From Tribonema minus (lineage: Eukaryota; Sar; Xanthophyceae; Tribonematales; Tribonemataceae): a stretch of 64,000 nt of DNA. Under the pieces are notes generated by a model that saw only the letters and a list, made by a program, of their open reading frames with translations, was not told the DNA's origin and did not search any database. Where the stretch lies: NCBI GenBank assembly GCA_017506865.1, contig JAFCMP010000042.1, positions 310,001 through 374,000 on the forward strand, written 5' to 3'. Of this stretch, positions 997-63,144 are shown one piece after another; positions within the stretch are counted from its first letter, which is position 1; every line of letters starts with the position of its first letter. A program made the translations under genes and the position numbers.

Positions 997-3900
997 ATCC
1001 GGCTGCGAAAGTGGCAGGAGGAACGCGAGAAGCGCGAGAAACGCAAAGGTACGCCGATGCTCTCAGTGCTCCGCGGCATACAAATGACAATTGCTTGTAC
1101 TTCGAAGTATCAAGTATGTGCCGAAACAGGCATCACCTCATTATGCGTTGATGTGTGACAGTGATGAGTTGCTTGTCGATGGTGATCCTGATAAGTGATA
1201 CTTCGAAGTATGCGTGAAAGGCGCAAGGAACGCAAAGGTGTGCCGATGCTCTTCGCCCCAGTGCTCCGCAGCATTATCTCGAGCATTGCTTTCAGTGATA
1301 TATGTATTTGTATGTCGGAACAAACGACGCTTCATGAGACGCTGACATTTGACAGTGATGGGGTGCTTGTCCCATCATGTTCCTGGTAAGTGATATGCGT
1401 GAGAAGCACGAGAGACGCAGAGCTGCGCCGATGCTCTTCGCCCTAGTGCTCCGCAGCATTCTCACGAGTACTGATTTATCAAACATCTGTCAGAGCAAAG
1501 ATCATTTGTTGAGACGTTGACGTTTGACAGTGATGAGGTGGTTGTCCCATGCTCCTGATATGTGGTATGCCAGTGTGCTGTATGGATTTAAAGTGTGCCA
1601 TCAAACTTCATATTTTTGAAGTTTTCAACTGTGTGAAGTGTTTGTTGAAGTCTGACTCCTCCCCTTGGTTTCCACGGTACCTCGCACCACTACCACAATC
1701 GCAACGCGAGACAGGCGAAGAAAGGTTGCTGTCAATGCAAAGGCGACGCCCACGCCTCACTGCAGCCGTTGTTGTTCTGCCTGATCTGTGTGCTGATCGC
1801 CGCCACATGTGGCGTTGCAATTGCGGTGATGCTCAGTTCTCACCACCTTAAATGGCCGCTTCTCGCTTGTAGCCAAGCGCTGTTTCCACGCGTGTCCTGC
1901 CCCCTGCCCACCTTTTGGATAAACATGGTGACGCTCATCTGACCCCGTCGCGGCTGGCTGGCGGTTTCGCCCGCAGGCACCGAGGAGGAGGAGGACGAAG
2001 CTCCCGAGCAGACGCCGTCCGGCATCGAGAACTGGCATCTGGGGGTCCCCAGCTGGGCTGAGGTGAGCAATGAGAACAGCGTAATACTCAATAACTGAGA
2101 CATGGTGTCATCACTACTTGACAGTTACGCCTTTGCCCATACCATTGACCAGTACAGAGTCTGCGATTGAGGTGAGCCACGAGAACGTGCCTGTGCAGAC
2201 GTGCGTCACAGCCTACCCCTGCCCCTATCCCTATTATTGATCGTCACTCTTACCCTCACCCTACCTCAAAACGGCCTGGCGGACAGGGTCGTGTGACGAG
2301 TACTCTTTGCATCAGCGCATTTCGTTGCCATCATGGTGGGGAGCTGCCGCTGCTGTGACGCCTCGAACGCGCGCTGAGCACTGACGCATCGCGCCAAACG
2401 CTGCGCACGCCAACATCACTCCATCGGCGCCTCGTCATACTGCATTTCCTGCGCTGGTGCCACCGTCCCGGCCTTCCGCGCTTGTTGTCCAATGCTGCCG
2501 TCGCCCCGTGGCGCTGCGCGTGCCACTGCGGCCCCCCGTGCATCTGCACGACATATACATACCGGTGCCGTTCTCACTTCAGAGAGTCGGGGCTGTCTGC
2601 GATGACCTCGAGGCACGCCCCGGCGGCGGCGGCGGCGGCTGCTTGTAACTTCAATGTTTTAACTTCAATGCTGGGACGCACATAACTTCAACTCTGACTC
2701 CAGTTCGACGCGGCCAGCTCACAAATGCGCGCCCCTGTCGTTGTGTGTGATCTGCTGCCGCGTTCACCGCATCCGTTTTCGCATACTTAGGGCTAGGGTT
2801 GAAATTGGGGTGAGTGTTAGGACTAGGGTCCAGGCTGCCCCTCAGACGCCACTTGGTTGTTTTGCGAGACAGGCTGCTGATGTGCTTTCGTGTGTTCTCT
2901 TGCCGGCGCCGGTCCTGGCAGGGTCTTAACAAGCAGGGCAAGCAGGCGCAGAGCTACCTCAAGCCGCGTAGAAAGGTGAGGTGCCTGCCGCATTGCGCCG
3001 AGCGCTTGCTTTGTCCGTACAAGTCGCTGGCGCTGCTCGCAGGTTCAGAATGGAGCTCATTGCCGTGGCAGTTGCTGCATGTGCTGAAAGCACTGCACTG
3101 GTGCACAAACACAGGCGGGAAACTGGAGACAGAAAGGTGATGCATCTTGACAGATCTTGCGCCCATCAGTGAGCGGGTGGTATTCTGGTAGTGCTGTGCC
3201 GCGAATTACGTTCGCAGTAGCCACACTTGCGCAGCAGCAGCGTCGCTGGCGATGCATGCGCATCAAGGGGTAAGTAAAAAAACAAAGACGACTGACCACC
3301 AGCCGCGGTATCGTTTTGTGCGTAGCTGCTGACGCGGTCACAAAGGGGGTTAGGGTTAGGGTTAGAGTTGCTATTTGGGTTAGCCGTCCATTTCTCGCAG
3401 TCAAGCGCCCGCAGTTCGACTTGCTTCGCCAGCGTTGTGCCCTCCCCCTCCCCTCCACGCACAGCCTCACTCATTGACTCACTCATTGACTCACTCACTC
3501 ATTCACTCATCGTACCATCATGTCCATGTCTGTGTGGGGTCAGTACGGAAGGCCCCCCAGCATGCACGACTTCACTCACTGACTCACTCACTCACTGACG
3601 CGCTGGTCTCTCCGCGTGCTTTTGCAGACACGCGTGTGCAAGCAGTGGCTGGAGGCACGCGCGCAACGTCCCGCGCCGGACGGCGCGCCAGCATGGTGAG
3701 TGAGTGAGTAAGTGAGTGACTCTATTTGCAGACACACGTGTGCAAGCAGTGGCTGGAGGCGCGCGCACAGCGGCCCGCGCCGGACGGCGCGCCAGCATGG
3801 TGAGTGAGTGAGTGAGTGAGTGAGTTAGCGACTCTATTTGCTTGTGAGAGCAGTGACTGGAGGGGCGCGCGTCGAACGGCGCTGCAGCATGGTGAGTGAG

Positions 3901-6900
3901 TGAGTGAGTGGGTGAGTGAATGTGTGCCTCTATTTGCGCTGTGAGCAGCGGCTGGAGGCGCGCGCAGCGGCCCTCGTGCCGGCCGCGTGCTGGCTTCGTG
4001 AGTGAGTAAGTGAGTCAGTCAATGCAGAGTCATGCAGAGGCCACTCACATTGTTGCGGCCACGGCTGCGACTTGCGCCGAAATCTATCACAAATTTCCAA
4101 GCGATCCAACCTCAACGCTAGTCGTGGCTTCAACACCAACTTCCGCCCACCGTCACCAGGTGGGGGTGCCTGCGCGCACGCGGCTGCTTTTGCCGAAACC
4201 TAACGCGAATTGTTTGCCAATCCAACCTCAACCCTTGTCCTGACTTCAACTCTAACTTCAGCTCGCCAGGTGGGGGGTGCCCGCACGGCTGCGGCTGTGA
4301 CTTTTGCCAAAAGCTATCAGTGATGTCCAGCTGCGTGCGAAATCCAACCTCCACCTCGCTCCTGAGTTCAACCCTTAGGTAGTACCTTCACGCACATTGC
4401 AGGTGGGGGGGCCCGCGCGGCCGCAGCTGCGACTTTGCGCACGGCGATGTGCCCGCGCGGCCGCGGCTGCTTTTGCCCAAACCTAACACTACAACTCCAA
4501 CCTCAACCCCAGTCCCACTAACTTCAACTCTCAGTTCTGCTCGCCAGCCAGTCCTAGTAACTGCAACTCTAACTTCACCCACATCGCCAGTGGGGGTGCC
4601 CGCGCGGGCGCGGCTGCGACTTTGCGTACGGCGAAGACGAGCTCAACTCATAGCTACCTCCCATCTCAACCCCTGCCCTTCAAGCTATCGTGATGTCCAA
4701 CTGCGTGGCCAACTCGATCTCCACCCCAGTCCTAAGTTCAAACCTCACTTTAACTCTACCTTCACACACACTGCAGGTGGGGGTGCCCGCGCGGCCGCGG
4801 TTGCGACTTTGCGCACGGCGACGACGAGCTCAAGGGCGAGGCCGCCAAGGAGGTCAAGAAGCGCAAGGCGCTGGCCACTAAGGAGGAGGTGCGAGCGCAG
4901 TTGCAGCTAGCACAACTGCTTACGCAATCCGTAGCTCCGACCTGAGGAAGTGCCTCGATACAAACCTAGCCCTTGACTCAAAGATATGGTAGCCCTCAAC
5001 GCTGACAAACGCATTAATTAGCGCAGGCAACCGTTCTCAGAACACAGTCAGGAATCGTGAACGCAAGGCGCTGGCCACAAAGGAGGAGGTGCGGGCGCAG
5101 TGGCAGCTAGCAAAACGGTAGCCCTGACCTACGCCGTGTTTCACCGCTGCACGACGTTGCAAGACAGCAGGAATGATTGTTGTGAGGGCGAAACGGGGTT
5201 GCCGATCACTGCAGCGTGCAACATTGGCTTGTCTAAGTTGTCAGGTGTCTTGCCGAAGTTTTCATGCGGCTTGTGGAAGTTATCATACAGTGTTGAGGAT
5301 GTCCATCGGCCCGTGTTGAAGTTGTCAACAGCTTGTTGAAGTTTTCCATCGCCCTGTGACCACACTGCGCCTATTCCATGTGCAGGCTGCCAAGGAGCTG
5401 GACCGTTATCTTGCGGCCTCCATGGAGCAAGACCTAGGCCACGACATGGCCGACGCGGTGAGTGTTTGTACTTGAACTGCATACATTCGACATGCGATGC
5501 GTCGCATTGCATAGAGCTGTATGCGATGCGTAGACCTACATGTGCTGCTGCTCATTGAATACTCAGCAGCGCTCAGTCACGTGTCAAGACCTCACTGTCA
5601 ACAGCGCTCCGCTGGAACAGCTACGCGCCTGCAGGCGCTTGTTGTGTCCATCGCCTGCAGTACACTTGGTTGTGTAGGCGAAGACTTGAAGTTCACTTTA
5701 CCGCACCCATCGCTCCGCTGGGCCGCCATGCGCCTGTTGGATCGCGTGCAAGCCTCCGTGACCGTGGACTCAACCCTTACCCCAAGTGTTGCACTCTGTG
5801 CAGTTTGTTGTGCAGCCTGTTCAATGCAAGTGTGGCCCTTTTGCGACCCCGAGCCCATCGTATTCGGAGTTGAAGCCAGTCAAATCCAGAGTATTGTCGC
5901 TCAAAGCAACCGTTTCACGTTTTGTAACCGTCGCAGGTGCAGCAGGGGCTGGTCGCCGCGCAGCAGGCGAAGAAGCAGAAGACAGCTCTCAAGGTACATT
6001 TTTTTGTTTGTTCAGATGTGTGGACATAGCGCGGCATGCCTCATGCATGCATTGCGCCTGCGCGCACGTCGCACGGGTACGCATGCTGTCGCGTATACCG
6101 CATGCATGGCATCGGCGCTGCGCGCGCGGGCTGCACACACTGCGGACTCGCGACAGCGCCGCTAGCTGTCAGCGAAGAATAGCGCATTTCGTCGCGCAAC
6201 TCGTCGCCATTACAGTGAGTTTAGAGTGACGGCGCCAGTGCGCATCAGCAATTGATTGGCATTAGCAATTGATTGGCGGGGCGTTGCGTTGCGCACCAAT
6301 CACTGGGCTTGCAGCGGTATGAGCGCTGCTGCTGCTTGCCCCCCCGGAACCTGCTGCCGCTCCTGTCCGCAGATGTTCGGCTCAACTTGGTCACTGCACG
6401 CAGCGCGCAGCAGAACCGCTCCTGCCATATGGAAGGGGGGGGGGGCACCGCTCAGCACACAGGGCTGGGCACTGGCACCTCGCTTGCTTCCCCAGCCGGC
6501 GGCTCGTATTGCAGCAAAACGTTTGCACTCAGGGCGCTGCCACGCCGACGATGCTGCGGCGCGAGCCGCGAGCGCTACCGCCGCTGCCTGCGCAGGTCAT
6601 GCACCAGCACGTGTATCAGCTGTGTGACTTTGGAAGCACGTTGAGACCAAATAATTTTCTCTTCAATACAGAATACCAATCAGCTACTACTGTATGTATC
6701 GGTCGCTTGCGCAGGCCGCGGAAGCTCGAGCGCTGCTGCCCCTGCCCTCTGGCGCCCGGCGTACAATCAAATCAAACAAATCTCTCCCAACACAGAAAAT
6801 CAATCAGCTACTACTTTATGTATCGGTTGCTGCGCAGGCCGCGGAAGCTCGAGCGCTGCTGCCCCTGGCCGCAGCGCCCGCAGCGCAGGCGCCAGAGGGC

Positions 6901-9900
6901 AAGGCAGGGGACGCTGTTGACCTGGCGGCGGCCACAGAATGCAGGTGTGGCTTATTAGGGTTGGTTGTAGGGTTTGCATTAGTTCTAGGGTTAGGCTAGG
7001 GCAAGCGGCAAGGTTAGAGCTAGAAGTAGCGGCTCACGATGGTTTGGGCTAGGGGTAGGGGTTGGCTAGGGTGGGGGGTAGGGTCGGGCAAGGCGGGGGA
7101 CGGGTTGACCTGGCGGCGGCCACAGAATGCAGGTACGGCTTATTAGGGTTAAACATAGGGTTTGGGTTAGGGCTAGGATTAGGGTGAGGGTTGGTGTTGG
7201 CGGCTGGCTCACTAGGGTCGAGCAAAAGGTTCGGTTAGGGCTAGGGATTGGCTAGGGTCGGGGGTAGGATTGGACAAGACAAGGTGCGGTGTTGACCTGG
7301 CGGCGGCCACAGAATGCAGGTGCAGCTTATCAGGGTTGGGGTCAGGTTTTAGGGTTACATCTGGGGTTAGGGCCTAGGCTTGAGAGGCAAAGTTGGTTCA
7401 GCGTCGCACTACGTCGCTGGCCTCTCGAAGGTAGGTGTGCTTGGGTCAGGGCTAAGGTTCGGGTGCAGCTCATTAGGGTTCAAAATGGGGTTAGGGTTAG
7501 GGCTAGGGTTAGGCTAGGGTCAGGAGCAGGGTTGGTCCGGCATTGCACTACATCATGGTCCCCTGGAAGGTATGCTGGAGCCAGGATTGGAATTGTGTTT
7601 ATTTAGGTCCACAATCAGATCAGGGTTTGGGTAAGTGTCAGGATTGGTTTGGCGGCATACTTCATAGCTGGCTGCTGGAACAGACGATCGAAAAGCCTAC
7701 AGGACGCACTTCAGCAGCATCATGCGGCAGTGTTGAGGTCAGGGTCAGGGTTGGGGCTAGGGCAAGGCATTGCTGGCCGCTGGAACGGATGATCGAGAAG
7801 CCCACAGGACGCACTTCAGACGCATCGCGCCGCAGGATAAGGATTAGAGTTAGGGTTAGGGTTAGGGCTCGTAAAAATGGTTGTTTGATTGTTGGGACCC
7901 GTTTGCGCCCCTAGCGACAGTCAGTGAAACTACTTGAAAACAGGCTGGCGTGACACTTGTACGGCACTGGTGCGTGTGCTGTTGTGGGGTCAGGATTAGG
8001 GTTGAATGCCCCCTGCGTGCTCACGCTGGCACCGCCTGTTCGGATGCCTTTGCTCTGCCGCAGAGGCTACATGACATGAGCTTTAATTTGCTACAATCTT
8101 CAATTTGCTGGTTCAGACGCCCCGCGCACCGCACTGCGATGGATGGCACCGACGGCGTCGCAACACCCCCAACACTTGCATGAAACCTTGCCCGACTTCA
8201 GCCTTGATGCATCTGCGCTGCCTCCTTTGCATCTAAACCCCTAACGCTACCGCTCTATTCTCTGCGTTCGTGCAGTTGGCTGGGAACGCTCGCGGGAGAG
8301 CTGCGCATGGACGAGACGGGTCAGGTGAGCGCTGCTGCATAGCCCTAGCCCCAGCTCTAATTCTAACCCTTGAGATGGGACAGGGAGTGCTGTCTAGCCC
8401 TAACCCTAACCCTAGCCCCTGTTCCAGCCCCAGCTCTTGAGATGGACAGGTGAGCGCTGCTGACCAGCCCTAGTGCTAGGCGCTCAGCACCTCTGACTCA
8501 AGCAGCGCTCAGCAGCCTGGGCAGCGCTCAGCAGCCACCTCAGCGCTCAGCGGCCGCCTCAGCGCCTTACAGCCCCCTCACCGCTGGCAGCCACCTCAGC
8601 GCTCAGCAGCCATCTCAACGCTCAGCGGCTGAGTTTGACTACGGCCAGCGCTCAGTAGCCGCCTCAGCGCTCAGCAGCGCTTTTCGAGCGCTCAGCGGCT
8701 GATTCTCACTGGGGCAGTGCTCAGCAAACACCTGAGCGCACAACTCCTTGCCTCTGGCCCTTTCTCAAGACCCCTTAACCAGTTGACCCCTACGTACTTG
8801 CAATTGGCGTTGAGCACCAACAACTACATACCATGTGTGGGGTGTACGCCAAGCGCCCGCTCCCCCTCGCATCAATGGCGCTAGCAAGTTTGCCAGCGCA
8901 TCCGTGCGGGCACGCAGCGCGCCACCTCTACTGCCACTTGCATCATACCTGAGTATTTCAAGGACTTGAACTTGCATTTGGCAATGAGCACTGACACGCC
9001 ATTTGGTGCCTGACGCCCGCCCTCAGCGGCGCGACTGCGAGCATGTTTGTGAGGGGCGTGCGCCTGCGCGCGGGGCGCTATCAGCTGCCTGCATTATACC
9101 TGAGTACTTCAAGTACTTGAACTTGCACTGACGAACCATATCACACGCCTGGCGCCGGCCCTCAGGTCAGCGGCGCGAGCGAGTTTGCGAGCGCGTTTGT
9201 GAGGGGCGTGCGCCTGTGCAGTGCACTGGGCGCTGTATAAACCTCACGTACTTGAACTTGCATTTAATGATGAGCACTGACGAGCCACTTTGCGCCTGGC
9301 GCCCGTTGTCACTGACACGTCAGGTCAGCGGCGCGAGCGAATTTGCGAGTGCGTTTGTGAGGGGCGTTCGACTGCGCACTGGGCGCTGGTACTACGAGGT
9401 TTCTCTCGCCAGCGACGGCCTCGTGCAGCTGGGCTGGGCAGATCATCTCTTCAAGGTGAGCATACATGAGAGCGCTTTCTTCGCTTTGAGTATAGTACTT
9501 TTGGGTATCATGGGTTACGCTTGGGGTATGAAACATGCGACGATGGCCTTTCACAGCTTGGCTAACCGTTATGTTGCCCTAACCCTAACCCTACATAACA
9601 GCGGACCACCACTTCAAACGCGAGCACAGTTCCAACATGCATCATACCTCCTGTGACTGCGCCGCGTATGGCATGGTGCCTCATTTCAGGTTAACGACAT
9701 TGGTGACAGCACCCACTGCTACCAAACCTTGTGCTTTGAAGCAGTAGACGCAACTTTCTTGGAAGGTTTGATTCATCGAAAGCTCCATCAGCCCCGCACG
9801 TCATGCGCCTGCGCCGCGTGTGGCGGGGTGGCGTTTGTGAGGGCAGCGGCATAGGCGACGACACCCACACGCGTACCAATACTTGGCGTGTGAGGTTCAA

Positions 9901-12900
9901 CATGTGACGTACCTTTTCGATGACAGTTGCTACTACTTTGTCTTGAAGCACAGAGTTCACTGCGCATTGTACCCTGCGCCGCATGCGTCAGGGCGACTCG
10001 TTCGAGGGCAACGGCATCGGCGATGACCCCCACTTGTGCCCGTACTCGATGTGTGAAGTTCAACAAGCGACGTGCCGTTACGACAAACAATAGCTCATAC
10101 CTTGTCTTGAAGCAGTGACTGCGCTGCGTGCGTCCGGGCAACTCATTTGAGGGCAACAGCGTTGGCGACCTCACCCACTCATACCAATCCTCGACATGTA
10201 AAGTTCAATACTTCAAGTATGTGACTTGCCTGTACGATGACACCCGCTCGTACTCGTTTTGAAGCACTGAGTTCACCACGCATTATACCCTCGTGTGACT
10301 ACGCAGGGTGACTCAGTTGAGGACAACAGTCAGATGCACTTGAAGCGCGAATTTTCATACTTGAAGTACCAAGTTCATTGTACCCTTGTGTGACTGCGCT
10401 GCGTTCGTCAGGGTGACCCTTTTGAGGGCAATGGTATTGGCGACGACACCCACTCGTACCAATACTCGACATGTGAAGTTCAATACTTCAAGTATGTGAC
10501 TTGCCTGTACGACGACACCCGCTCGTGCTCGTTTTGAAGCGCCGAGTTCACGGCGCATTATACCCTCGTGTGACTACGCAGGGTGACTCGTTTGAGGGCA
10601 ACGGCATCGGCGACGACACCCACTCGTGGGCGTACGACGGCCTGAGGCAGAAGCGCTGGAACGGCGAGGAGGACGAGGCATCCGCTCCCGACTATGGCAC
10701 TGCATGGAAGGTATGCCAGTAGGTGTGAAGAAACAAACTTTCAAGACAAGGCATGTGTCTAGTGGCAGGGGGGTATGTAATCATGCGCTTTCAGTGGGTA
10801 TGAGGTTTGTGGGCGTGAGCACTGGAATGGCGAGGAGGACGCGGCTGTGGCACTGCATGGAAGGTATGTGTATCCCTCTGGGGGGTAAGGGTGAGCGGCT
10901 AGGGTCAGGGGCAATGCGAGGGTTCGGGTATGGGTTCTCAGGGTAAGGCATGTAGGCATGAGCGCTTGAATAAAGCGAGGACGACGAAGCATCCGCGCCC
11001 GACCATGGCACTGCGTGGAAGGTACGCAATCATGGGGGGCACGGGGGTGGGGGTGGGTGGATATGTTGGTATGGGCTCTCTAAGTGAGGCTTGTAGGTGT
11101 CATGGGGGGTATGTAGGTATGGGCTCTGAGGGTAAGTCATGTAGGTACAGTATGAGTGCTGGAATGGCGAGGAGGACGAGGCCTTGGCGCCTGACAATGC
11201 CACTGCGTGGAAGGTACGCAATCATGCAGGGGGGGGGGAGTTGTGTACTTTTTGGAGTACATATTTCACTCTCAGGTTAAGGTATGTAGGCAGAAGCGAT
11301 GGAATGGCAAGGAGGATGAGGCCTCCGCGCCCGATTATGGTACCGCATGGAAGGTACGTAATCATGCGAGGAGGGGGGGCATATACAAAAGTAGATTTGG
11401 ACTCTCAGGGGAAGCATGTAGGCATGGGTGCTAACCATGTAGAATGGCGAGAAGGACGAAGCATCCGGACTATGGCACTGCATGGAAGGTACGTGAGGCT
11501 GCTTAGGTATTGGAGACTGTAGGTATGGCCTTATAAATGGCGAAGAGGGCAAGGCATCCGCGCCTGACTATGGCACTGCATGGAAGGTGCGCAATCATGG
11601 GGGGTTGGGGGGGGGGGGGGGGGGGCATGTAGGTATAGACCCTGAGGATAAGGTATATGTAGAGATGTACGGGGTATCCAGGCATACGCACTGGACTGGC
11701 GAGGAGGACAGGGCGGCTGCGCCTGACTACGGTAGCGCGTGGAATGTTTGTACCTGTGTAGGGGGTATGTGTGTATGTTCACATGCACGCGTGGGCGCTT
11801 ACGGCTGTGCGCCCCAGGTGCTGTTGATATAGCACATACCGACTTCAAAGTTGAAGTGATTTTGCGGCGCTGCTGCCCCCCGTCGTCAGGCCGGGGGACG
11901 TCATGGGGAGATTCTCAAACATGGGGTAATGTTAAAGTTTGCTGATCTCCACATGCAACAATGTTGATGTTTGATGGGCGCTGCTGCCTGTCAAAGGGCC
12001 AGGGGACGCCGTGGGGTGATTGCTGGACGCCGAAGCTGGCACGCTGAGCTTCAAAACTTGAAGTAACATTTGAAGTTTGCTGATCGCTGTTGCCGTTTTC
12101 AGGTCGGGGACGTCGTGGGCTGCCTGCTTGATGCCGACGCCGGCACGCTGAGCTTCACCCACAATGGGCAGGACCTGGGCGTCGCGTTTGGCGAGCTGCC
12201 GCGCTACGCGGACCGCACAGGTAACCCGCCAGGCCTACTGCATGTGGTGACGTGCCGCTGACGTCTGCGTTTCTGTGTTGGCGAGCTGCCGCCATGGCGA
12301 CCGCAACTCAGGTAACCGCCAGGCCAACTGCATGTGGTGACGTGCCGGTGACGACTGCATTTCTGTGTGTTGGCGAGCTGCCGTGCTAAGGCGACAGCAG
12401 CTCAGTTACTGCCAGGCCTACTTACTGCATGCGGTGACGCACCATCGTATGCATGCATTATAGTGCGGCGGAGGCTCCTAGATGCGGACCAGATGCTGCA
12501 TCGCTCATGCGGATTCGTTGCTCAGGCACGCCGAGGGTTAGGATTAGGGGTAGGGGTAGGAGCCCGTCCACTTGTGCCGCAAAGTTGCAGACACTGTGTA
12601 CATCTTCCCTGTGTACCGATGCAATCGCCATGCGTGCATGCACGCGTGCTGCGATGAAATGCAGTCTCTGCATGCGTGCAAGCTGCTTTCATGCCCCAGA
12701 GTTTCAGGCTAGGGTCAGATTTTTCTAACCCTAACCCTGACCTCACCCTAATACAGACCTGATTGTAATCAGAAACAAAACCCTCCCATCATTGTGGTAT
12801 CAGTTCGGCGCCTCAGAACGTGCAACAGGCTCCGCACGCTGCTCAGGCCGGCACGCCAGGCGTGTCATGTCCCCGTTCTTTGACCGGCAGCATGCTACAA

Positions 12901-26560: not shown

Positions 26561-26561
26561 A

Positions 26562-27115: not shown

Positions 27116-27503
27116 TTGGCATCTAGCTCAATCAGACAGGCTGTACGGAATCTACTAGCAGTACATGTCATATACGTACAACGCTCGTTAACGCCGAGAG
27201 GCGTGGCAGCGAATGCGGCTGGTGTGGTGGGTGGGCTGGGCTGCAGGGCTTGCAGGAGCTAGCACCAGCGGCCCTCAGGTGATGCCAGCGTGCGTAGCCC
27301 CTTCGAGAACACTTCAAACGTGTGGTGGTGTCTCGGAAGCCCTGGCTGGCGTGCGGAGGAGGGACAGGCAGCGGGTTGGCGTGCTTGGAGAGCAAGCGGA
27401 GTTGGCTGCACGCCACGGCACCAACCACAAGTTACTCGCAGCGGTAAATGGCAATATCTTGTCAGGCTTGCAGCCTGCGGTGAGCCGTGACCTCGCTCAT
27501 CAA

Positions 27504-36770: not shown

Positions 36771-36828
36771 CGTGGTGAAGAGTAGTGCAGTTGTCACACC
36801 ACGATGCCGGCTGGCTGTACTGTAGTGT

Positions 36829-38480: not shown

Positions 38481-38493
38481 CAACGCTGCAGCG

Positions 38494-43229: not shown

Positions 43230-43440
43230 ATTCAATGTGTACCGCCACCTACTGCAGCGGAGTCCATTCCGACGCCCGCTGCTTGTGCCAGTCTGACATG
43301 CATACGGCATTGTGACAAAGTTTTCCATATGGGAATGCCAACCGGGACATTGTGATGTTCCCAACGTCCACTTCAACTTGTACCGCCACCTTTTGCTGCG
43401 GAGTCCATTCCCACGCCTGCCGGCCGCCCCGTGATCTAAT
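43230..43440 (+). repeat. Acceptor-side copies of exon 43496-43590
   Basis: GCAGCGGAGTCCATTCCGAC-type segments lie near 43254 and 43396, before the copy at 43492 that opens the candidate exon. All follow CCGCCACCT(A/T)-type intron ends. Confidence 0.65.
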
Positions 43441-43495
43441 GACAACTTCAACTTGTGCTGCCACCTATTGCAACTTGTGCCGGCGCTTATTGCAG

Positions 43496-43590
43496 CGGAG
43501 TCCACTCCGACGCCCGCCGGCAGCTCGGGGTTCCGCCCGCAGAGTCCGCACCTCCCTGGGCCTGGGGGGGGCCTCAGCCTTGGCATGAGG
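43496..43590 (+). CDS. Probable exon preceding the QW-motif gene body
   Basis: It is flanked by TTGCAG and GTGGCA. In the frame that joins the next exon (44615) it reads GVHSDARRQLGVPPAES...PWHE and passes phase 1 onward, giving a Trp-rich junction PWHEGQWAGGW. Acceptor-side copies upstream and donor-side copies downstream support its edges. No family was recognised for this part. Confidence 0.5.
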
Positions 43591-43779
43591 GTGGCAACTC
43601 ACACGGCACACGGTGCGCAGCACAATGTATTTGGTGTAACACTCAAATAAAGATTTATCAGTTTCGTGTTGGTGTGACAATGGATGTTCTTGAATACCAA
43701 GAAAGCTCCCGCAGAACACATGACCCCCCTGAGCTGCAGGACATTTCCTACTTTGAAGTATTTCATGCTTCAATGTATG

Positions 43780-44260
43780 TCAGCCACGGCACGAGGGGTG
43801 GCGGCGCCCACTGCGCGCGGTACGCACCGCAGTGTTTCAGCGTCAGGCGTGCTTCACGTTTCTTCAGGCAAGTACATGCACTTTCTATGCACCAACAGAT
43901 GCCAATGGTCAACGCAGCACTCACAGAATGTAGACCGACCACAAGTGGGTATGATACCACTTTGAAGTACATGTTGAAGTATCAGATTCTTCCCTGGCAT
44001 GAGGGCGGCGGCGCACGCGGCACACGGTGCACGGCACACTGTACTAGCTGTACACTCTAAGAATTCTAGAGATCTGGCTTTTGTGTGACGACGGATGTCA
44101 AGTTCAAGACAGCTTCCACAGAGCACAGCGGCATGCCTGGGCGTGATACTCACCCTGTACAAGCACGTGCATGAAAATGTACATTCATAAGGCGTCAGCG
44201 TTGGCAGAGGGGCGGTGGCGACGCGCACGTCACACGGTGCGCAGCTCAGTGTCAATCACA
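43780..44260 (+). repeat. Three donor-side copies of exon 43496-43590
   Basis: The exon end plus donor (GGCATGAGGGYGGC...CACACGGTGC) recurs near 43788, 43996 and 44200, with a regular spacing of about 205 bp. Confidence 0.65.
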
Positions 44261-44424
44261 GGGGTGCTCTGCAAGACGTGTATGCTTTGAATGCGGCAAC
44301 AGACGCTCAGGGTCCAGGCAGCTCCTACAGCAAACGACGCCGGCCCTAGCCATTGTTGCTGGCCAAACACATGTGAAGGATGCACCTCAGCTGCTTCTTG
44401 CCGATGGCCGATGAACACTGCTCG

Positions 44425-44490
44425 CAAAACGCACAGGGCAGTGGGCCGGCGGGTGGCGCACGCTGTTCCCGCACTTTGTACACAGGCACA
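44425..44490 (+). repeat. Acceptor-side copy of exon 44615-44722
   Basis: GCAAAACGCACAGGGCAGTG...GGTGGCGCACGCTG at about 44422-44465 repeats the acceptor and first 30 bp of the exon. The preceding intron word GATGGCCGRTGAA is shared as well. Confidence 0.75.
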
Positions 44491-44614
44491 CGAGCGTACC
44501 TGAATATGCACAGGTCACCTTGGGCACCGCCGAGAGTGCAGAAATGGCCCGGTGTTCCTTGACTCCCAGTCTGATTGTCTGATGGCCGGTGAATACCGTC
44601 CGCAAAACGCGCAG

Positions 44615-53600: not shown

Positions 53601-56600
53601 TGCGCGAACTCAAGTGGCAGGAGTACATGCACCACGTGCATGACTTGCGAGAGTACATGCCTGGTACAGCGAACCTACGGCAACAGCGAACTCTGCTGCG
53701 GCTACGAGGACGCTTGCTGGTGGCTGCGCGTGCCGCGCTCGTATTGCGGCCGTCGCGCGCTCGTGAGCTGAGGGTGGAAGTAGTATATAGACAACGAGTT
53801 TGCAACGAGTTTGCATGCTGGCTGCAAGCGTACAAGTGTACGCATTCAAGTTGTCAAGCGTTCAGGTTGTTGAGCAGCATTACACATGCCATGCAATGAT
53901 GTGCCATTGAACCGGCTTCTTGCTGCTGCTGTGCGGCCTTGTGCCGGCAGCACCCAGTCTGTTCAACTGTCACTGGTAACTGAACGCTGCGCGCGAAACA
54001 GGAAGTGAACATTGTTTCCACACGTTTTGCTGTGGCGCAGTGCTACCTGGTGGCCCATGTCATCCTGACGCTCAACAGCTGGGGCGAGCTGCGGCTGGAG
54101 CCGGAGTTGCTGCCGCACGAGTACCTATTTGTCAGAGAGGTGAGAGCAGGTGGACACAACATCTTCAACTCTTATGGGCAGCGCAGAGCTGCAAAGGTAG
54201 TCTGCACTGCATGCAATTTGCAGCATTCATGTACTTTTCATCAACGCTCAGGGCGCCGAAAAGCCCAGATGGTGGATGTCCAGCTTGCAACCAGAATCCA
54301 CATGTCTTTGTGAACACCTTAAAAGTGCCTCAATACGCATTGCCGATCACGTCTTTCTACTCAAGCCCATGGTGGTGAGAGCAATGCAAATCAATTGAGT
54401 TTCACTTGCATCTCCGCTTGAGAACGGCAGCTTCAAATATGGGTGTAGATCAGGCCAGTCACGGCTAGTCAAATCACGCTGGGCGATTCTGCTGACACTG
54501 ACTAAGCTGCGACATTTCCACGGTCCTGAAAGCGAGTAGGAGGGACGGCCTTGCTGCTTGCAATGCGACATTGTCATGAATGCACTTTGGTGTGGCGGAC
54601 CGGGCTCCGCTCTTGCCGCAGTTGCGACATTATGACCTTTCTTTTTGCGGATTGATAGTGGCAGCATGATTGCTCAGATGGAGCACGCAAATCACACTTA
54701 ATAAAAGTGGCAACCCACCCACCATGCAGCTGAGGGGGGTACATTAGGCAAGGCTCCATTCACATGTATAGCTTGAGCCTTGCCATGTGCAACTCGTATT
54801 CCACATTCCTTGAATGTTGTGGCCATGACAACGCACTGCACGTGCAGCTTCTGCTGCTGGTCCGATCATGGCATGCAGCAGTGCCAAACCCTGTTGTATG
54901 TGTTGTGGACCGTAGAATGGTGCAGGTATCACTCTGCCATATCGGCTGATCGACATGGCAGTTGTGCTCCATAAACTACGACGCCGCGGAAGCCTTGCGG
55001 CAGCGGCCGACACACATTTGCGTCATCTCCAACGACATGGAGTGCAGCGCAAACGGCTTCATCGGCCTACCTGCCTGCACATGTTGCAAGCCGATAATCG
55101 TTATGTTTCGCCAAGGATCTGTGAACCAGAGGAATGTGAAAGTCTTCCGCTCTTCCTCCGTCGTTCCTCCACCGCCGCAGCACTTGGCAGTGCAAATAAC
55201 GCAGCGGGATGTGCACCTGGTGGGGCAGTTCATCGAGGTCAGCGTTGTCGCATCGTCTGATCATTGGTTTGCCTGAAGTCACGCGAGTAGTTGGGGCTAA
55301 GCATCGGGGCATGACATCAGATGGCTCGAATTTGCCCTTATTGTATCATGGGGTTATGGTGTAGTGGTTATCACGAATCGTTTGCAACGATTAGGTCGTG
55401 GGTTCGAGCCCCACTAACTCCTGTTTTTTTCCTTTCTTGCTTCACCGTTCTTCACCTCAATTTTTGCATGTGTCATCTGAGTGTGTTGTAGTACGAAGGG
55501 GGGTGCGAAGTTAAAGTAGGAGGGTGTATACAGTCTGCCAATGTTTGGTCTGCACCCAAATGATGAACCCACTGCGCCATTGCGGAGCCTGCGCCTGCAA
55601 TGAGATCATGAAATTGCAGCATAAAACGGGACTTTTCAAAGCCTCCTAAAACTCTCATATCAGCTCCCACACAATGCGCTACACACCAGACAAGGGACCA
55701 TTGCCAGGACATTCACTGTGCGATGGTGACAGGATTCTCGCTGCGCGCTGCCCTCATTGGCTGCATCGTTGCCTGGCAGGTGCTGCGCGTCTTTGGCGCC
55801 GCCGACTCCGACCCCCTCATACAGGTGAGGCGCACCGATGGCAGCGCTCAAAACGCACACATCGCGGCGCTTGCATCCAGCGCTTGTGCTTGAGCAGTCA
55901 GCAGCAGTACCGCACTAGCTTCTATACTAGTCAGTGCGTGTACTGAAACGTGTGTCACGCGACAAGGCTCTCGCGCTGCGCTTGTGCATGAGAGGCATGA
56001 GAGCAGCCACCAATATCCATCTGCATTGTACTTCCTATTAATTCTCGCTCAGGGCGCAAAAATCCCAGATGATTGATATCAAAGCTTAGACATAGTACAG
56101 AATCCACGTGCCGTGTGGCAGTCTGAAAGTGTCTCGATGACAATCACTTCAGTGTACTAATGCGCGCGCGCGCTATCGACGTCTCTCGTTGTTGTTGGGA
56201 CCAGGCCGGCATCACCTTCCTTCTGCAGGCGCAGGAGGAAGACGGGTCCTGGGACAGGGGTGAAGACAGGGTAAGAGTTCTACTTGGTACTTGCTTTCGG
56301 CGCTGTTCCAGTTGCTGCCTGTTGGCCAACTGTGTATGTTGTGCACATGTCAGGAGGGTGATCACGTTGCGCCAGAGAAGGCGGCGGCGCGCGCCTGCGT
56401 GTACTCTGCAGGAAGGCGCTTTACTGTAGACTGTGTGCAATCAGGGTACGCGCCGAAACCCACCCATGTTTCCCCGAAACTAGTTTTGGCGATATGTCGG
56501 GGTCGGATCCATTGGAACTTGTTGGAATGGCCGGGATGCATTTGAGGGCGAAGGGACTCCGTCAGGGTGTTTGATACTGTTCTGTGCATAGCACAAGTGT

Positions 56601-59600
56601 AGGGTTGCAAAAAAGCGTATTTCCCCACACAAATACGCCTTATTCAAATACGCCGTATTTCCAGTACGTATTTGATGTATTTGGCGAATCTGGGCATATG
56701 CTGGCACACGCAGTGTAGCTACAGCACACACAGCTCTCTGGTGTGCAACCTCAACCTCAAGTTGAGGTTTGACGCACTGTATGCCTCGTCTACTAGAAGG
56801 CGCTCAGGGTTAAGGGCAGGGTTAGAATGAGGGTCAGGGTTAGGTGTAGGAGCTGGAGCAGCCACGACGACGACGAGGGTGGCATTTACGTGCACAAATC
56901 GTGAGGTGGCGATGGCAGACACCTTGGGCCTCTGATGATGGCGGTAGCGGTGCTGGCGAGGCTGCTGTACCTGCAACAATTCCTGTCGAGCGAGCATTGC
57001 TGCCTGTGCAGCCATCCATCGGCTGTGTGGCCATCCATCGGTGTCGAAGGAAAACGCGGCCACACAGAATAAACGATCATGTTGAAGTTCGGCTTCATCG
57101 AAGGAGAAGAAGAAGGCGAAGGCAGGCAAGGGGGAAGGATGCGGCGTTGCCCACACTGCCTTGTCAAGCACTCCGTGGGCATTTGCAAAGGGGTCAGGCG
57201 TGAGGTCGCTCAAAAAGCACGTCCCAGTTCCTGGTGCTGCTGTCTCGCTGCTGATGTCAGCGTCAGCAAAGGAGCGCAGTTAACAGGCCTACGACAACAC
57301 CGTATTTGCGGCGTATTTGCTCACACAAATACGTATTTAAATACGTATATACGCCCCCGTACTTAAGTACGCATACGAAGTTTTGCAACCCTACACAAGT
57401 GTGTTTGCACACACCACGCTTCAAACTGGTATGACAGCGGTTTGGTCATTACTGTCAGCAGTTGTTGCGCCTCATCTCAACCCTCCCCCCGCCCATTCCC
57501 TAACCCTAACCTGTCGGAACTAAAGATCGGAACCTGAGGCAACGAGGCCTCGAGGTTTCGACGTTCACCCTGTATGTACGTACAGAATTGGCCTTGTAAT
57601 CGAGGCAGTCGCTATCCTGGTTAGGAAGAACCGATTCTGGTATTTTTATCCGTTTTGAGGTGAGCTCTTCAGCCCGCATGGATACATAGTTTGTGGTTTT
57701 GACTTTTTACGGATGCACGCACACACAATCTCTTCTTGTGAAATGGATGCTATGTGTGTGTTCTTACCCTAACCCTAACCCTAACCCTAAACCTAACCCT
57801 AACCCTAAGTGTCACTATTGTGTATGTGTGGGTGTGTTCTGTCAGAAACTTTTCAACAGGTACTGTTTGATCATGTGTTTATCCGTTTCTAGGCAACACG
57901 GGTCCAGCTTTGATAGAATGTATACGCTGGCACCTGCATGCGCACAGCTAGTAAAGCTGAACAAGACCATCATCAATAATCGAAAACAGTACGATAATTA
58001 TCGAAAAACTTCAATTTCGATCGGATTTTTTCCTATTCCGATGATTGTATTGGAACCTGGATTGAAACTGCTCAAAAAGCTTATCTTGAGCGATGCTCAA
58101 AAATGCTCATCTTGAGCAAAGAGGGTGGATTGAAACCCCTCTCCAGCACGGCTCTGCGCACCGTTGTTGCTCAAGATAAGCCTTTTTGAGCATCGACTGT
58201 GAAGCACGACAGAGGGGTGAATCACGTAGTTCAACTTGCCACACGTCAGTGCTTCATTGTGAGCCAGGAACGCGGTACTGCACTGTTCAGCACGCGCGGA
58301 CGCCCGAAGGAGCAGGTGGACCGATACGCACAAAATTCATTTGCGGCGCCAAATTCCTGTGAGCCTCGCCGCTGTCGGACCGGCATTATTATGTAATGTC
58401 AGCAAAGTATACTTATCAGTGCCTTTGCCACTGCCCGCTCTCGGTTCCCCGAATTTGCGCGGTGGGACCGAAGATTGAAAATTCGGCATGCGGAACTGAC
58501 CTGTCTTGGGCATGTCGGCTGTTGTTCATGAACCAACTTCAACACTGGCTGCTTCATAAACCAACTTCAACATGTGAACATGTGCTGAGCCGTGCGTTGT
58601 CAGTTTCAGATTTATCCATTATGATGCATTGCACTGCGATCGCTGACCTGGGTCTCATGGGCCGCTCTCTCGCTCGACTGCCGCTGCTGCCGCTGCCCGC
58701 CGTTGCAGGACGACTATACGACCTACCATGCTACCATGGTCGGCATACAGGTGCGCCAGCATGATTCAAAGCAGTACATTGTGAGTACACCACCGATGAA
58801 TGTGAAGAATTATTTCCGATTTGTCGTGCCCCCAATGAGAACTGATACTTTGTCCAAGGAGTACACTCACGCATATGTGCGTCTTCGCATCCGAATTGGA
58901 AATGATCAGAGTACACCGGTGCACTGCCGCTGATGTCGATCTTGTTGCCAGCCAAGCGGGCCACACGCGGTGAGTTGGTGTCTGGTGGGTCGATGGAAGG
59001 CCGAGCGAAGGCCATCCGAGAGAGATGGATAAGCTTAGACGCGCTGATGCGACGCCGGGTGCTGGCCTTGCGCAGCGCTCAGCGCTCAGCAGGCACGAAA
59101 AGGTTGTGGTTATCATGGAAAGTATACTTCTCCGGAGTACTTTCCCATACATTTCATCATCATTTACACATATCAGAAATCCCAGTGACTTTGGCGCATA
59201 TTGGCGAAAATTTCGGTTGAGGTAGTTGACACACAAGTACAATGATCTGTGGCACACACAGAAGTGAATATCATACCTACGTACGCTAAGCCAGCGCTGC
59301 CAAGTTGAGGGTACCACCTGAAGAAACGCGCCTGGTGTCGCTGCTCGGGGTTTCCTGTCCAAGGCGCGCGACGCGCGCGACGGCAAAGGGTCACGATTAG
59401 GGTTTGGGTTAGGGGTAGGGTCAGGGTTCGTGGCCTTGCGCGATGCTCTGCATTCGGGGGGGACCCTAAGGCACGGGACACTGTAAGGCGGCGAACGCCA
59501 CGTGGACATTATAGGCATTTTCGATGGATCAGGGTCTCTAGCGCGGGGACCCCCTGTCCGAGGCGCGGGACGCGCGCGACGGCAAAAGGTCATAGTTAGG

Positions 59601-60934
59601 GTTGGGGGTTGGGTCAGGGTTCGTGGCCTTGCGCGACGCGCTGCAATTGGGGAACCCTAGGGCGCGCGACTCTGTAAGGCGGCAAACACCGCGTGGATGT
59701 TTGAGGCACGCGGATGTCGAGGCATTTTTGATTGATGAGCGTCTGTAGTGCGGGAACCCCCTGTCCGAGGCGCGAAATGTACGCGACGACAAAGGGTTAG
59801 GGTTAGTCTCCGAATTTGTGGGGGTGCGCGACGTGCAGCGTCTGCTGTGCGGCGCAGTTTGCGGAGCGCTGCTACGAGGCTGTCGCTGCTGAAGCTGATG
59901 GCTGTGATCGACAAAGTTTGTCAGCGGTGCGGGCCGCAGAGCGCTGCCTTTGAAGCCTTCGCTGCTGGCGCTGATGGCTCTGGTCAACAGAGTCCCTTTT
60001 TGTCAAAATTTCTCTTTGACTCCTAGTCGGCTAGCGTCTGCTGCGCGCGCTGTGAGAGAAGGAATCGGCGGATTCCGAAGCGGGTGCGAGCGCGATGTGA
60101 ACGAGTGAATGTGTACATACCAGTGGTGCATGTTGCGTGGCACTACATTTTGTCGCGCGCGCTTGTTCCGCGGCAGTGTTCCAGCACGCAAACTCCACAG
60201 GGCAACGTGCGATCACATGAGTTTACTCGAGAATGCTGTATGGTATGTGCGCCCAGGCGGTCAATGCAACGCATTTCGACCTGTACGATTGTCATTTCGA
60301 CCTGTACGATAGTCGTACAGGTCGAAATGCGTTGCATTGACCACCTGGGCGACAATCGTACAGGTCGAAATGTGCTGCATTGACCACCTGTCTGCAAGCA
60401 CGCAGGCAGGGTATGCGCGCTTCTCCCACCATACCCAGGCATGCACGATGCTCACCCCGTGCCCCGCACCCGCCTGCCTGCTCACAGGCGCTGCTGGTCC
60501 ACGTCTACAGGGGGAGCGGACCGGGCATCACCAGGTACGCATTTCAGCAGCGCCCAGCGACGGCATGAGTGTGCTCCGTGCCCACGAGCTCCTCAGCAGT
60601 GCTCAAAACCAACCGGGTTCCGTCGCTTGCCCCGCATGCCCCCCCCCCCGCCCCCTCGCCGGCGCCCCTTCTCCTGCGCGCACCCCCCCCCCTTGTGATC
60701 CTCCACGAGAGCCACTCTACTCCTTTGATGCCTACATCCCTTATACCAAGCTCATATCATCGCTGTTACCCCCCCCCCCCCCCCCCCCCGCCCTCCCCGT
60801 GTGCGACCGCCCTGCAAACCCCCCTGCGAAGCCTGGCGCCGCTGCTCGAGGAGTGGTACGCGGAGGAGATGTGCCGCGAGTCCAAGCCCCTGTCGAGCAC
60901 TGCCGCCGTCGACGAGGCCAACGATACGAGGTGA
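44615..60934 (+). CDS. Uncharacterised QW-motif protein, terpenoid-cyclase-fold-like
   Basis: Exons joining in phase: 44615-44722, 46425-46519, 47644-47682, 48289-48375, 49079-49117, 50200-50250, 52840-53025, 54002-54139, 55181-55237, 55780-55824, 56205-56270, 58709-58750, 60488-60534, 60832-60930, about 366 residues. The exon at 56205 encodes AGITFLLQAQEEDGSWD, which fits the QW repeat (G-x2-F-L-x3-Q-x3-G-x-W) of squalene-cyclase-like alpha-alpha barrels. DDYTTYHATMVGIQALL follows it. Other landmarks: LFGNDIIQCFYD, RVGVRLGCGYEDVFRWL, HVILTLNSWGELRLEPELLP and VHLVGQFIEVLRVFGA. No cyclase DxDD or DCTAE motif is seen, so a catalytic role is not supported. If the last donor is ignored, TGA at 60932-60934 ends the protein; otherwise it splices to 61982. 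The 5' exons are unsettled. Confidence 0.78.
44850..45020 (+). repeat. Two donor-side copies of exon 44615-44722
   Basis: The exon end (AGCATGGMGCA...GGCAACTTCACGCTC) recurs near 44856 and 44962, each followed by GGCGAGCG-like intron. The two following introns also share the phrase CTGCATGTGACAGTGGA. Confidence 0.75.
45690..46165 (+). repeat. Acceptor-side copies of exon 46425-46519
   Basis: Units near 45680, 45940 and 46082 repeat CTTGTGCTGAGCACTGCTGC, and in the second case ACAACGACATCATCCAGTGC from the exon itself. The first and second units are separated by a retroelement-like fragment. Confidence 0.65.
45775..46330 (-). mobile_element. Fragments related to the 26.7-kb retroelement-like remnant
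   Basis: Two pieces, about 45775-45900 and 46195-46330, share minus-strand wording (SAVLHMASHSLRM, HMAES) and bases (GTCCATTGTTGATTCCGCCA) with each other, and protein-level wording with 26673-26954. Both look old and partial and lie inside an intron. Confidence 0.35.
46700..46780 (+). repeat. Donor-side copy of exon 46425-46519
   Basis: TCATGTATGTGGAGCAGCTG plus GCACATGTATGTAGGTACTT repeats the exon end, donor and 30 bp of intron about 230 bp downstream. Confidence 0.8.
48050..48288 (+). repeat. Acceptor-side copies of exon 48289-48375
   Basis: Units of about 90 bp starting near 48060 and 48150 repeat the intron end (TAACCGCCTGCTCTGCGCTC), the GCAG acceptor and GCGACCGCGCCYGA from the exon. 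Confidence 0.75.
49125..49375 (+). repeat. Tandem intron duplication after exon 49079-49117
   Basis: About 95 bp (GCGCCTGGTCAGCCTACTCG...CCGCCACACAGCTCTG) recurs at an offset of about 150 bp. Both copies include CTCGAGTACTCG palindromes. Confidence 0.65.
50243..50490 (+). repeat. Donor-side copy of exon 50200-50250
   Basis: GAGTGCTGGTGAGC and the next 60 bp recur near 50416 (GAGTGCTGATGAGCGG...), including TTCTRTGACRCCAG and CGCAACGTGCGC-like words. Confidence 0.65.
51215..52795 (+). repeat. At least seven acceptor-side copies of exon 52840-53025
   Basis: Copies of the GCGCAG acceptor and first 50 to 60 bp of the exon (GACGTGTACACGGGCGCGCC...) lie near 51218, 51318, 51437, 51557, 51665, 52614 and 52738, with a weaker one near 51085. 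They are joined by (GAAT)n microsatellite. An hAT element splits the series at 51720. Confidence 0.85.
51720..52546 (+). mobile_element. hAT DNA transposon, 827 bp, with 8-bp target duplication
   Basis: The ends TAGGGATGTGC...GCACATCCCTA are inverted. The flanking direct repeat AACATGAC (51712-51719 and 52547-52554) is perfect and matches the uninterrupted sequence in a neighbouring exon copy near 52661. Inside, 51948-52265 encodes the carboxy end of an hAT transposase (FPHMAKVAVKMLSFH, CATERNWSLWGDIF, then RNRLALQRAEKLVMIRGN), the dimerisation region. The catalytic part is absent, so the copy is non-autonomous. The subterminal sequence is rich in TATACGTATA-like words. Confidence 0.92.
53083..53775 (+). 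repeat. Five donor-side copies of exon 52840-53025
   Basis: Copies of the exon end (CTGCGCCCGTACCGCGGCCC...GAGTACATGGACCAG) plus a GTGCGTGA donor lie near 53085, 53235, 53390, 53556 and 53697. The first copy is identical to the exon for over 60 bp; the last is much altered. They repeat every 140 to 165 bp. Confidence 0.88.
54229..54350 (+). repeat. Copy of the dispersed ~110-bp repeat
   Basis: It starts GTACTTTTCATCAACGCTCA and carries GGGCGCCGAAAAGCCC and AGAATCCACATGTC. It ends near GCCGATCACG. Confidence 0.65.
55350..55421 (+). tRNA. tRNA-Ala (UGC)
   Basis: This is a complete 72-nt cloverleaf: acceptor GGGGTTA/TAACTCC, D arm with box A TGGTGTAGTGG, anticodon arm AATCG-TTTGCAA-CGATT (anticodon TGC), and T arm GTGGG-TTCGAGC-CCCAC with box B GGTTCGAGCCC. 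Acceptor pair 3-70 is G-T, the alanine identity element. A TTTTTTT pol III terminator begins at 55424. No intron. The next base, where A73 is expected, is T, which is unusual. The gene lies on the same strand inside an intron of the QW-motif gene. Confidence 0.95.
56028..56150 (+). repeat. Copy of the dispersed ~110-bp repeat
   Basis: It starts GTACTTCCTATTAATTCTCG and carries CAGGGCGCAAAAATCCCAGA. It ends near TGACAATCACTTCAGTG. Confidence 0.7.
56600..57393. mobile_element. Second hAT-type element, 794 bp, with 8-bp target duplication
   Basis: The inverted ends are TAGGGTTGCAAAA and TTTTGCAACCCTA, and the flanking direct repeat CACAAGTG (56592-56599, 57394-57401) is perfect. Subterminal regions are rich in CAAATACG/CGTATTTG words that make extended hairpins. 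Internal open frames show no transposase motif, so this is a non-autonomous copy. End sequence and 8-bp duplication place it in the hAT superfamily, in a different family from the element at 51720. Confidence 0.88.
57755..57810 (+). repeat. Longest telomere-like (CCCTAA)n tract
   Basis: Seven to eight CCCTAAC units with one variant run at about 57766-57808, inside the intron between exons 56270 and 58709. Shorter tracts of two to four units occur near 3349, 7490, 7850, 8398, 13050, 13207, 14120, 33985, 36303, 40065 and 42945, in both orientations and all outside exons. Confidence 0.9.
58065..58195. repeat. Inverted repeat with ~23-bp arms
   Basis: TGCTCAAAAAGCTTATCTTG at about 58068 is the reverse complement, with one extra G, of the segment at about 58168-58192. 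The loop is about 80 bp and also contains a shorter TGCTCATCTTGAGCA palindrome. Confidence 0.75.
59354..59825 (+). repeat. Tandem repeat, about 200 bp, three units
   Basis: Units begin CCTGTCC(A/G)AGGCGCG near 59354, 59553 and 59760. They share GACGGCAAA(A)GGTCA, a TTAGGG-like patch, TTCGTGGCCTTGCGCGA and CTGTAAGGCGGC. No coding sense is apparent. Confidence 0.7.
59865..60000 (+). repeat. Short tandem duplication
   Basis: GCTGTCGCTGCTGAAGCTGA-TGGCTGTGATCGACAAAG near 59878 recurs as TTCGCTGCTGGCGCTGATGG-CTCTGGTCAACAGAG near 59957. Nothing is recognised in it. Confidence 0.4.
60250..60351. repeat. Near-perfect inverted repeat, 39-bp arms
   Basis: 60250-60288 and 60313-60351 are reverse complements with one mismatch; the inner 30 bp are perfect (GGTCAATGCAACGCATTTCG...). 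The 24-bp loop contains a second copy of CATTTCGACCTGTACGAT, so two alternative hairpins are possible. A further direct copy of the right arm follows at about 60353-60390. Confidence 0.9.
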
Positions 60935-61981: not shown

Positions 61982-63144
61982 TCCCACGTCGTCGGACTCC
62001 GAGTCCCGCAGCCCGCGCAAGCGCGCCCTCTGCAAGGAGCAGAAGGCCATCAAGGTGAGGGGACTTCACACGTTGCACTTCAAGTGCGTCGACCGCACCC
62101 ATGGCAAGTGCGTCGGCCGCAGCCATGGCGGTTTCAGCCAGTACCAGCCGGAAACTCCACTGTGAACACGCTCCGAGCTTCCATGATGGTTGCTTCAGCC
62201 AATGCTGCGCAGGCGGCGGACCTCACACATCTCAGACAGGCATAACCCCTGCGTACCGCTGACCGCTCTCATGTCAGCGTTCAACGGCGTTAGGCCGCCT
62301 TCAAAAGTGCACGACATCCGCAACACTATTGCTGCAGTGCTGCGTGGCCCTAGAAGTGTAAGTTTTTTTGTGGAGATGGTTGCGCAGATTGCCGCTCTGA
62401 TGACCCCTGCTGTGCATATGCTTTAGCACCCAGTAAACAGAGGGAAAGTGTGACTTTAGAGCAGGCTCCAGAATGATGCTTCACCTGGGTTACTTGATGC
62501 GTATTAACATCGTGTGCACACATTGCTGAATCATCAGAGCGCACCTCGAGGAATCCCGATGACAATTGGTGCAGAGTTTCAGTGCCCGCACTCATCGCCT
62601 TATCCCCGCACCCGCCCTGACATGTCGCTACACGCGCGTGCCGTGCGCAGCACAGACTCGTGTGAATTTCTGTGCGCATTTCCACGCGCGCCGCTATGTC
62701 TGTCGCCATTCGCTCTACGAAGAGTGCTGTCCGTCACCATTTGCCGTGCATGCAGTACTTCGACAGAGAATGCGCGTGCAATTGGTGTAATTTAGCGACG
62801 CGCATGCTCTTGAACACCACACTGCGCCACGCGTCTGTTTGAGCTCGTAGCGGTGTTGCCGTCTTGCCCAATTCGCTTTGAACGAAGGCTGTGCATGGTT
62901 TGACGCATGCGCATCGACGGCAATTCCACATCATCAGTGTGCACAAAAATGGTACACGTCTGCAGTGCAAGGCCGTTCAAGAATCTCGTGGCAGCACGTG
63001 TTCACCTGAGCTGCCAGTGGCACCATCAATCTTCTCCATCTTCTCACCACTTTCTATCGCTGCCTGTGCCATCCGTCACGTGCGCAGGCGGTTCGCAGCA
63101 TGGCTCAGGACATCGGCAGGCGCGCCAAGATGCAGGACTGGCAG
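61982..63144 (+). CDS. Two further exons, possible C-terminus of the QW-motif gene
   Basis: 61982-62054 reads PTSSDSESRSPRKRALCKEQ then KAIK (acceptor TGCGCAG, donor GTGAGG). 63088-63144 reads AVRSMAQDIGRRAKMQDWQ (acceptor TGCGCAG, donor GTATGT). The first needs two incoming bases, exactly what the exon ending at 60930 supplies, and the second follows in phase 0. The protein would gain a Ser-rich linker and a basic helix. It could instead be a separate downstream gene. The gene would then continue past the window. Confidence 0.5.

Follow-up and report, generated by a model that had tools for sequence, protein, structure and literature searches.

The closest described counterparts of the introns reported here are the 'mirages' of amphioxus, found in Adh3, TnC, the globin genes BflGb6 and BflGb9, and PGBD5 (PMC3087553, PMC3902484). 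A mirage unit of 10-160 bp holds either the 3' end of an intron with the 5' part of the exon or an exon 3' boundary. Both boundaries are affected, many copies keep the AG or GT, regular splicing is reported to be undisturbed and copy number differs between haplotypes; the papers describe the mechanism as unclear. Tandem duplication has also been linked to intron gain (Rogers 1989, as represented in citing passages), and a potato RdRp gene is described in which a new intron formed from a duplicated upstream intron-exon structure with a cryptic donor (PMC4974935). Searches of open PMC papers gave no record of dense mirages in a host other than amphioxus. The initial annotation of the present locus described series of partial exon copies in introns and regarded this kind of ladder as undescribed, a claim that does not survive the amphioxus Adh, TnC, globin and PGBD5 genes.

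The window, i.e. the whole stretch of DNA analysed, comprises 64 kb without gaps and has a GC content of 57%. Its exons are short and GC3-rich and its introns are long and of the GT-AG type, a make-up that marks it as eukaryotic. Genes were modelled with a small HMM trained on the window itself, which returned 89 + 56 segments (145). From these, 32 exons were hand-picked for coding continuity and completeness, with some edges adjusted; many of the segments left out are the decoy copies themselves. Domain matches cover eight of the 32 exons: three SPRY exons (Pfam, E=4.7e-22), exon 17351-17498 with an SDE2_2C domain (Pfam, 4.2e-14) and four exons of a Ras-family GTPase (Pfam, 2e-33), the SPRY and Ras-family matches being obtained with the exons joined in frame. 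The GTPase gene lies on the minus strand; we take it to be RABL2, and exon 29818-29874 presumably belongs to it as well. For the gene at 44.6-48.4 kb, there is a hint of CFAP54 only (E=0.22), and a PDB search gave it no support. GT is present at the modelled edges of 30/32 exons and AG at those of 29/32. The exceptions are 17351-17498 (stop-codon end), 54963-55066 (no modelled sites), 2921 (start apparently off by one) and 34570 (first exon). Modelled working acceptors carry G at -4 in ∼79% of cases (GCAG), with only a weak pyrimidine tract. The window also contains one tRNA gene (Rfam, ARAGORN) and, on the minus strand at 20028-21548, a GC-rich open frame of 506 aa from stop to stop with Ala, Gly, Pro and Gln runs. 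The search for relatives gave 20 loci in a pattern scan of viral contigs, taken as chance, three weak matches in a protein scan and one genome-contig match, 40% identical, in a bacterial MAG; none is counted as a relative.

Edge-spanning copies, sought within ±2 kb of each modelled exon at E≤1e-3, occur at 15 of the 32 exons. All 28 copies of 5' edges lie upstream and all 20 copies of 3' edges lie downstream, as the initial annotation had it when it described strict polarity. At E≤1e-6, the numbers are 22/22 and 20/20 at 13/32 exons, with none in reverse, and the nine homology-backed exons agree (12/12 and 6/6, at 5/9 exons). Ten further copies contain little or no intron sequence; nine are on the predicted side, and the tenth, at exon 15800-16053, reflects a GC-repeat match. 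Ladders, i.e. series of such copies or 'rungs', flank both sides of 7/32 exons. Around exons, 61 copies are direct and two inverted, and among non-coding matches 92 are direct and five inverted, with 0-1 direct in five shuffles. A target reversed without complementing gave 10 matches at 4/32 exons. Polarity is absent from 768 random intron intervals, where the four classes (5' upstream, 5' downstream, 3' upstream, 3' downstream) number 170/131/130/167, or 38/41/30/44 once ladder territory is removed. The start of SPRY exon 1 was taken at 9352 in the counts of polarity, identity, AG/GT and two-sided ladders, and at 9324 in those of decay and exon share and in later ones.

The SPRY/SDE2-like gene, on the plus strand, holds nine of the 15 exons. 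Rungs flank both sides of the HMM-predicted working exon 4777-4888, which follows exon 3732-3799 in frame according to its phases. Four upstream rungs (4128-4187, 4239-4304, 4311-4447 and 4560-4646) join the intron 3' end to exon nt 1-28, 1-34, 1-45 and 1-57, respectively, with identities of 74, 78, 82 and 86%, climbing towards the exon; one downstream rung (5062-5116) carries the last 27 exon nt and 28 intron nt at 93%. SPRY exon 1 (9324-9455, corrected start) has two upstream rungs (9023-9079 and 9162-9235). SPRY exon 2 (10582-10710; HMM, Pfam) is preceded by six 5'-edge copies between 9639 and 10457, two of them classed as exon-only, and followed by seven 3'-edge copies between 10818 and 11750, three of them exon-only. 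SPRY exon 3 (12103-12220; HMM, Pfam) has one rung upstream (11964-12053) and two downstream (12278-12439). Exon 6838-6944 (HMM) is flanked by one upstream rung with exon nt 1-43 (6648-6758) and two downstream with exon nt 60-107 (7086-7394). The terminal SDE2_2C exon 17351-17498 has two upstream rungs with exon nt 1-52 (16977-17222); another two, of greater age, sit near 16389 and 16791, spaced 402 nt. A very recent 402-bp tandem duplication (99%) within the intron, at 16098-16902, doubles an old weak copy of this exon edge. The remaining rungs of the gene lie downstream of exons 997-1048 (two, 1213-1537) and 13470-13592 (one, 13654-13789), and upstream of exon 15800-16053 (one, 15617-15715).

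Three further exons, in the gene at 44.6-48.4 kb (plus strand), have rungs: one upstream and two downstream of exon 44615-44722 (44403-45063), on both sides of exon 46425-46519 (45861-46826) and one upstream of exon 48289-48397 with exon nt 1-23 (48066-48218). Two more, one of them weak, belong to the gene at 50.2-56.3 kb. Here the working exon 52840-53025 (plus strand, HMM; DVYTGAPITPW...YMDQ) has six upstream 5'-edge copies (51223-52786), each ending at exon nt 45-49, and five downstream 3'-edge copies (53070-53818) that begin at exon nt 95-109. The last of the 15 exons is a weak case in the RABL2-like gene. The initial annotation counted at least 14 exons in three genes on both strands: the number of exons holds, with the spread over genes just given, and the minus strand is represented thinly, by the RABL2-like gene alone, where exon 32346 has one 36-nt copy and the 5' part of exon 31450-31591 has two exon-only copies upstream (31677-31718 and 31782-31812). 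A duplicated intron stretch without exon sequence, beginning at the donor, is also found in this gene at 34034-34498.

Strict polarity is not a sign of a directed process. By simple logic, when a segment that straddles the border of intron and exon is duplicated in tandem, the exon stays complete and its partial copy comes to lie on the intron side. Since any edge-crossing tandem duplication yields this arrangement, polarity needs no special mechanism; together, outward polarity and direct orientation therefore indicate a tandem origin.

Whether edges are preferred is a separate question. In early controls, masked duplication coverage up to 100 nt from edges (25-41%) resembled that farther away (25-36%), 20/64 edges were touched compared with 37% of random intron points, and 33% of random intron intervals had an edge copy. 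The conclusion that edges are not preferred was rejected because the random points, intervals and matches included the ladders' own rungs; ladder territory amounts to 27% of the 37.4 kb of genic non-coding DNA. Outside it, 14% of random intervals (110/768) have an edge copy, a rate similar to the reversed-target background (4/32 exons), versus 15 of 32 real exons. A masked census, in which exons were hidden and intron was compared with intron only, so that exon conservation had no influence, gave 67 genic matches: 26 edge-touching (at 19/64 edges), 36 rung-to-rung and five intron-only. Simulations of uniform duplication that produced 15-25 ladders (22 observed) gave 88-274 intron-only matches in 16 runs (88-122 without a half-exon rule and 202-274 with it, eight runs each). 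Their ratio of intron-only to edge-touching matches was 3.1-11.4 versus 0.19 observed, and duplications covered 67-91% of non-coding DNA versus 33%. With 5-, 10- and 30-fold edge preference (eight runs each), the ratio fell to 1.4-2.4, 0.9-1.8 and 0.4-0.8, and intron-only matches to 31-42, 17-27 and 10-18; another set of runs gave similar values, with 7-10 in three runs at 60-fold, so that the observed five is below all. The simulation assumptions are simple, with a single divergence value and with unit lengths for which the ladders were the main source. Part of the 36 rung-to-rung matches may represent duplications within arrays that involve intron only; if all 36 are counted as intron-only, the ratio becomes 1.6 and the preference only ∼5-fold. 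Thus, duplications are concentrated at exon edges, through mutation or retention, and a preference of at least 5-fold, probably at least 30-fold, is needed.

Duplication is not confined to edges, given 25 further local matches of the census between gene models (a single GC-rich open frame contains seven), unless exons went unmodelled there. Local tandem duplications outside gene models lie at 26528-28142, 36006-36270, 39561-44330 and 59337-59806, and some may flank such exons.

The second regularity, spotted after the fact, concerns the exon share of the copies. Its median within a ladder ranges from 0.04 to 0.49 and is below half in all 22 ladders, compared with 9.8/22 expected above half when each ladder's own shift and exon length are simulated. 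A maximum share as low as that observed arose in none of 20 000 runs, and the low mean share has P=0.0009. At virtual intervals, which are not independent, 52% of 267 ladders exceed half an exon. The limit is soft for individual copies, with 57/112, 72/129 and, in one weak case, 141/148 exceeding half. Whole-exon copies number three, all at exon 3732-3799. One of them (3621-3719, plus strand) has both splice sites intact and forms with the exon a tandem pair at 3621-3823, i.e. two intact 68-nt copies, 94% identical, separated by a 36-nt intron. Inclusion of both would shift the frame, since the exon has 68 nt, and the intron may be too short for splicing. The layout resembles that of mutually exclusive exons, and two further decayed whole copies lie downstream.

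Copies are 63-95% identical to their exons. The claim that they usually decay with distance stands as a tendency: of 26 pairs of neighbouring rungs, 18 have the more similar copy nearer to the exon, six show the reverse and two are tied (p=0.011 with ties excluded; p=0.004 by pooled permutation), and exceptions occur in the ladders of exons 10582, 17351 and 52840. Mismatches fall almost equally on the three codon positions (94/919, 104/916 and 149/917), and the exon part of copies differs less (13.2%) than the intron part (20.1%), which fits copies drifting while the exon is kept. The pooled changes (127 synonymous, 214 non-synonymous) are near neutral, with no sign of purifying selection on the copies, and several copies show gaps, frameshifts or lost splice sites. 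Decoy AG is intact in 21/28 copies and GT in 16/20, versus ∼64% predicted from flanking divergence. Intact decoy donors score 9.05 and their own working donors 9.07 (16/19 scored); intact decoy acceptors score 6.7 and their own working acceptors 6.6 (23/27 scored), the median of all working acceptors being 8.7. Neither retention nor scores reveal selection destroying decoy sites. As decoys are as strong as their own working sites, the cell must distinguish them by something else, for which exon definition is a candidate.

Collectively, direct tandem orientation, polarity as a matter of geometry, edge concentration, near-neutral decay, intact decoys and shares below half are observed features of these ladders. 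On balance, they are probably best explained by tandem duplication that prefers edges, followed by outward growth and near-neutral decay. Exon edges would be the favoured sites of short tandem duplication, the duplicated segment stretching from the intron into the near half of the exon, so that every event preserves the complete exon and adds a partial copy beyond it. As events recur and arrays expand, older copies would be driven outward, where they would decay almost neutrally and lengthen the intron; splicing would ignore the decoys because each offers a single splice site together with under half of an exon. The proposal of the initial annotation that tandem duplication across the junction, outside the working exon, lengthens introns is supported, and the edge concentration is real by both census and simulation. 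The concentration would then mean that the splice junction, or the exon boundary, is a mutational hotspot. A stronger version, advanced tentatively, holds that a process tied to the junction, such as splicing, transcription or exon chromatin, repeatedly copies less than half of the exon, so that introns grow outward from exon edges; the rule of under half an exon per copy, with hardly any copies of a whole exon, would also keep splicing safe. Avoidance of mid-exon breakage alone would be insufficient because both exon halves hold breakpoints (3' copies begin in the right half). A junction-centred hotspot would account for edge concentration and short exon reach alike.

The main rival is selective retention, in which duplications occur anywhere and are kept where the added splice sites or edge sequence, for example, strengthen exon recognition. 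Selection by splicing accounts for the exon reach capped at half, and perhaps for edge concentration too if copies aid exon recognition; the excess of intact decoy AG and GT over expectation and the match in strength between decoys and their own working sites also point this way. However, the copies drift near neutrally, and several are gapped or have lost their sites. The hotspot is preferred because of this neutral decay, and retention is rather unlikely. A uniform rain of tandem duplications, in which exon conservation simply makes the edge-crossing ones more visible, would agree with the flat coverage near and far from edges, the 33% of random intervals with an edge copy and the similar median shifts (285.5 versus 289.5, or 285.5 versus 287 after ladder removal). 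Yet the coverage and interval controls counted ladder rungs, the interval rate is 14% once these are removed, and the masked census found five intron-only matches instead of 88-274; this reading is disfavoured and highly improbable. That the copies are functional parts of alternative or mutually exclusive exons is suggested by one copy of exon 10582 with eight synonymous changes and one non-synonymous, and by the intact whole copy at exon 3732, but the near-neutral pooled changes, the gaps and frameshifts in several copies and the extent of partial copies, which stop short of the opposite exon edge, leave it very little probability. Assembly artefact, to which the 99% identity of the 402-bp tandem pair might point, hardly deserves credence given edge copies with 63-95% identity and differing indels.

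These conclusions concern one window, with hand-picked exon models and a simple simulation, and are drawn from DNA sequence alone. In this frame, boundary duplications of the amphioxus kind appear dense enough to shape many introns of one gene, probably in another lineage. A first estimate is obtained of the edge excess, at least 5-fold and probably 30-fold above chance, whether in the arising or the surviving of copies. Intron growth and the tolerance of splicing for strong decoys become testable within one genome. Edge copies also supply raw material for intron birth, of which the potato gene is an example (PMC4974935).

Compared with known systems, the ladders share with amphioxus mirages the tandem, direct, boundary-spanning copies (here 48/48 outward; 61 direct versus two inverted), the duplication of both 5' and 3' boundaries (both sides at 7/32 exons) and the frequent retention of AG/GT (AG in 21/28 copies and GT in 16/20). 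Amphioxus DNA has a GC content of ∼41%. Here it is 57%, with GC3-rich exons, which suggests that the window probably comes from another lineage; moreover, many exons are affected within 64 kb, the edge excess is measured by simulation and the exon share is capped at half. Introners likewise add intron sequence, but the edge copies here, which were sought locally, match the neighbouring exon, not a shared element. Self-comparison of the window gave a small number of dispersed matches; a dispersed repeat of ∼110 nt occurs at four or more places (26557-26672, 36823-36943, 54231-54333 and 56028-56148). In the AGGT model, a new intron consists of duplicated exon sequence: its beginning repeats the start of the downstream exon and its end repeats the end of the upstream exon. 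In the window, introns already present become longer, and all 48 edge copies surveyed show the other arrangement. Tandem duplication of intron-exon structure is shared with the potato RdRp case and the Rogers model. Thus, what is known is the amphioxus kind of duplication; what is new is the host, the density and the measured edge preference, with the half-exon limit as a possible further novelty.
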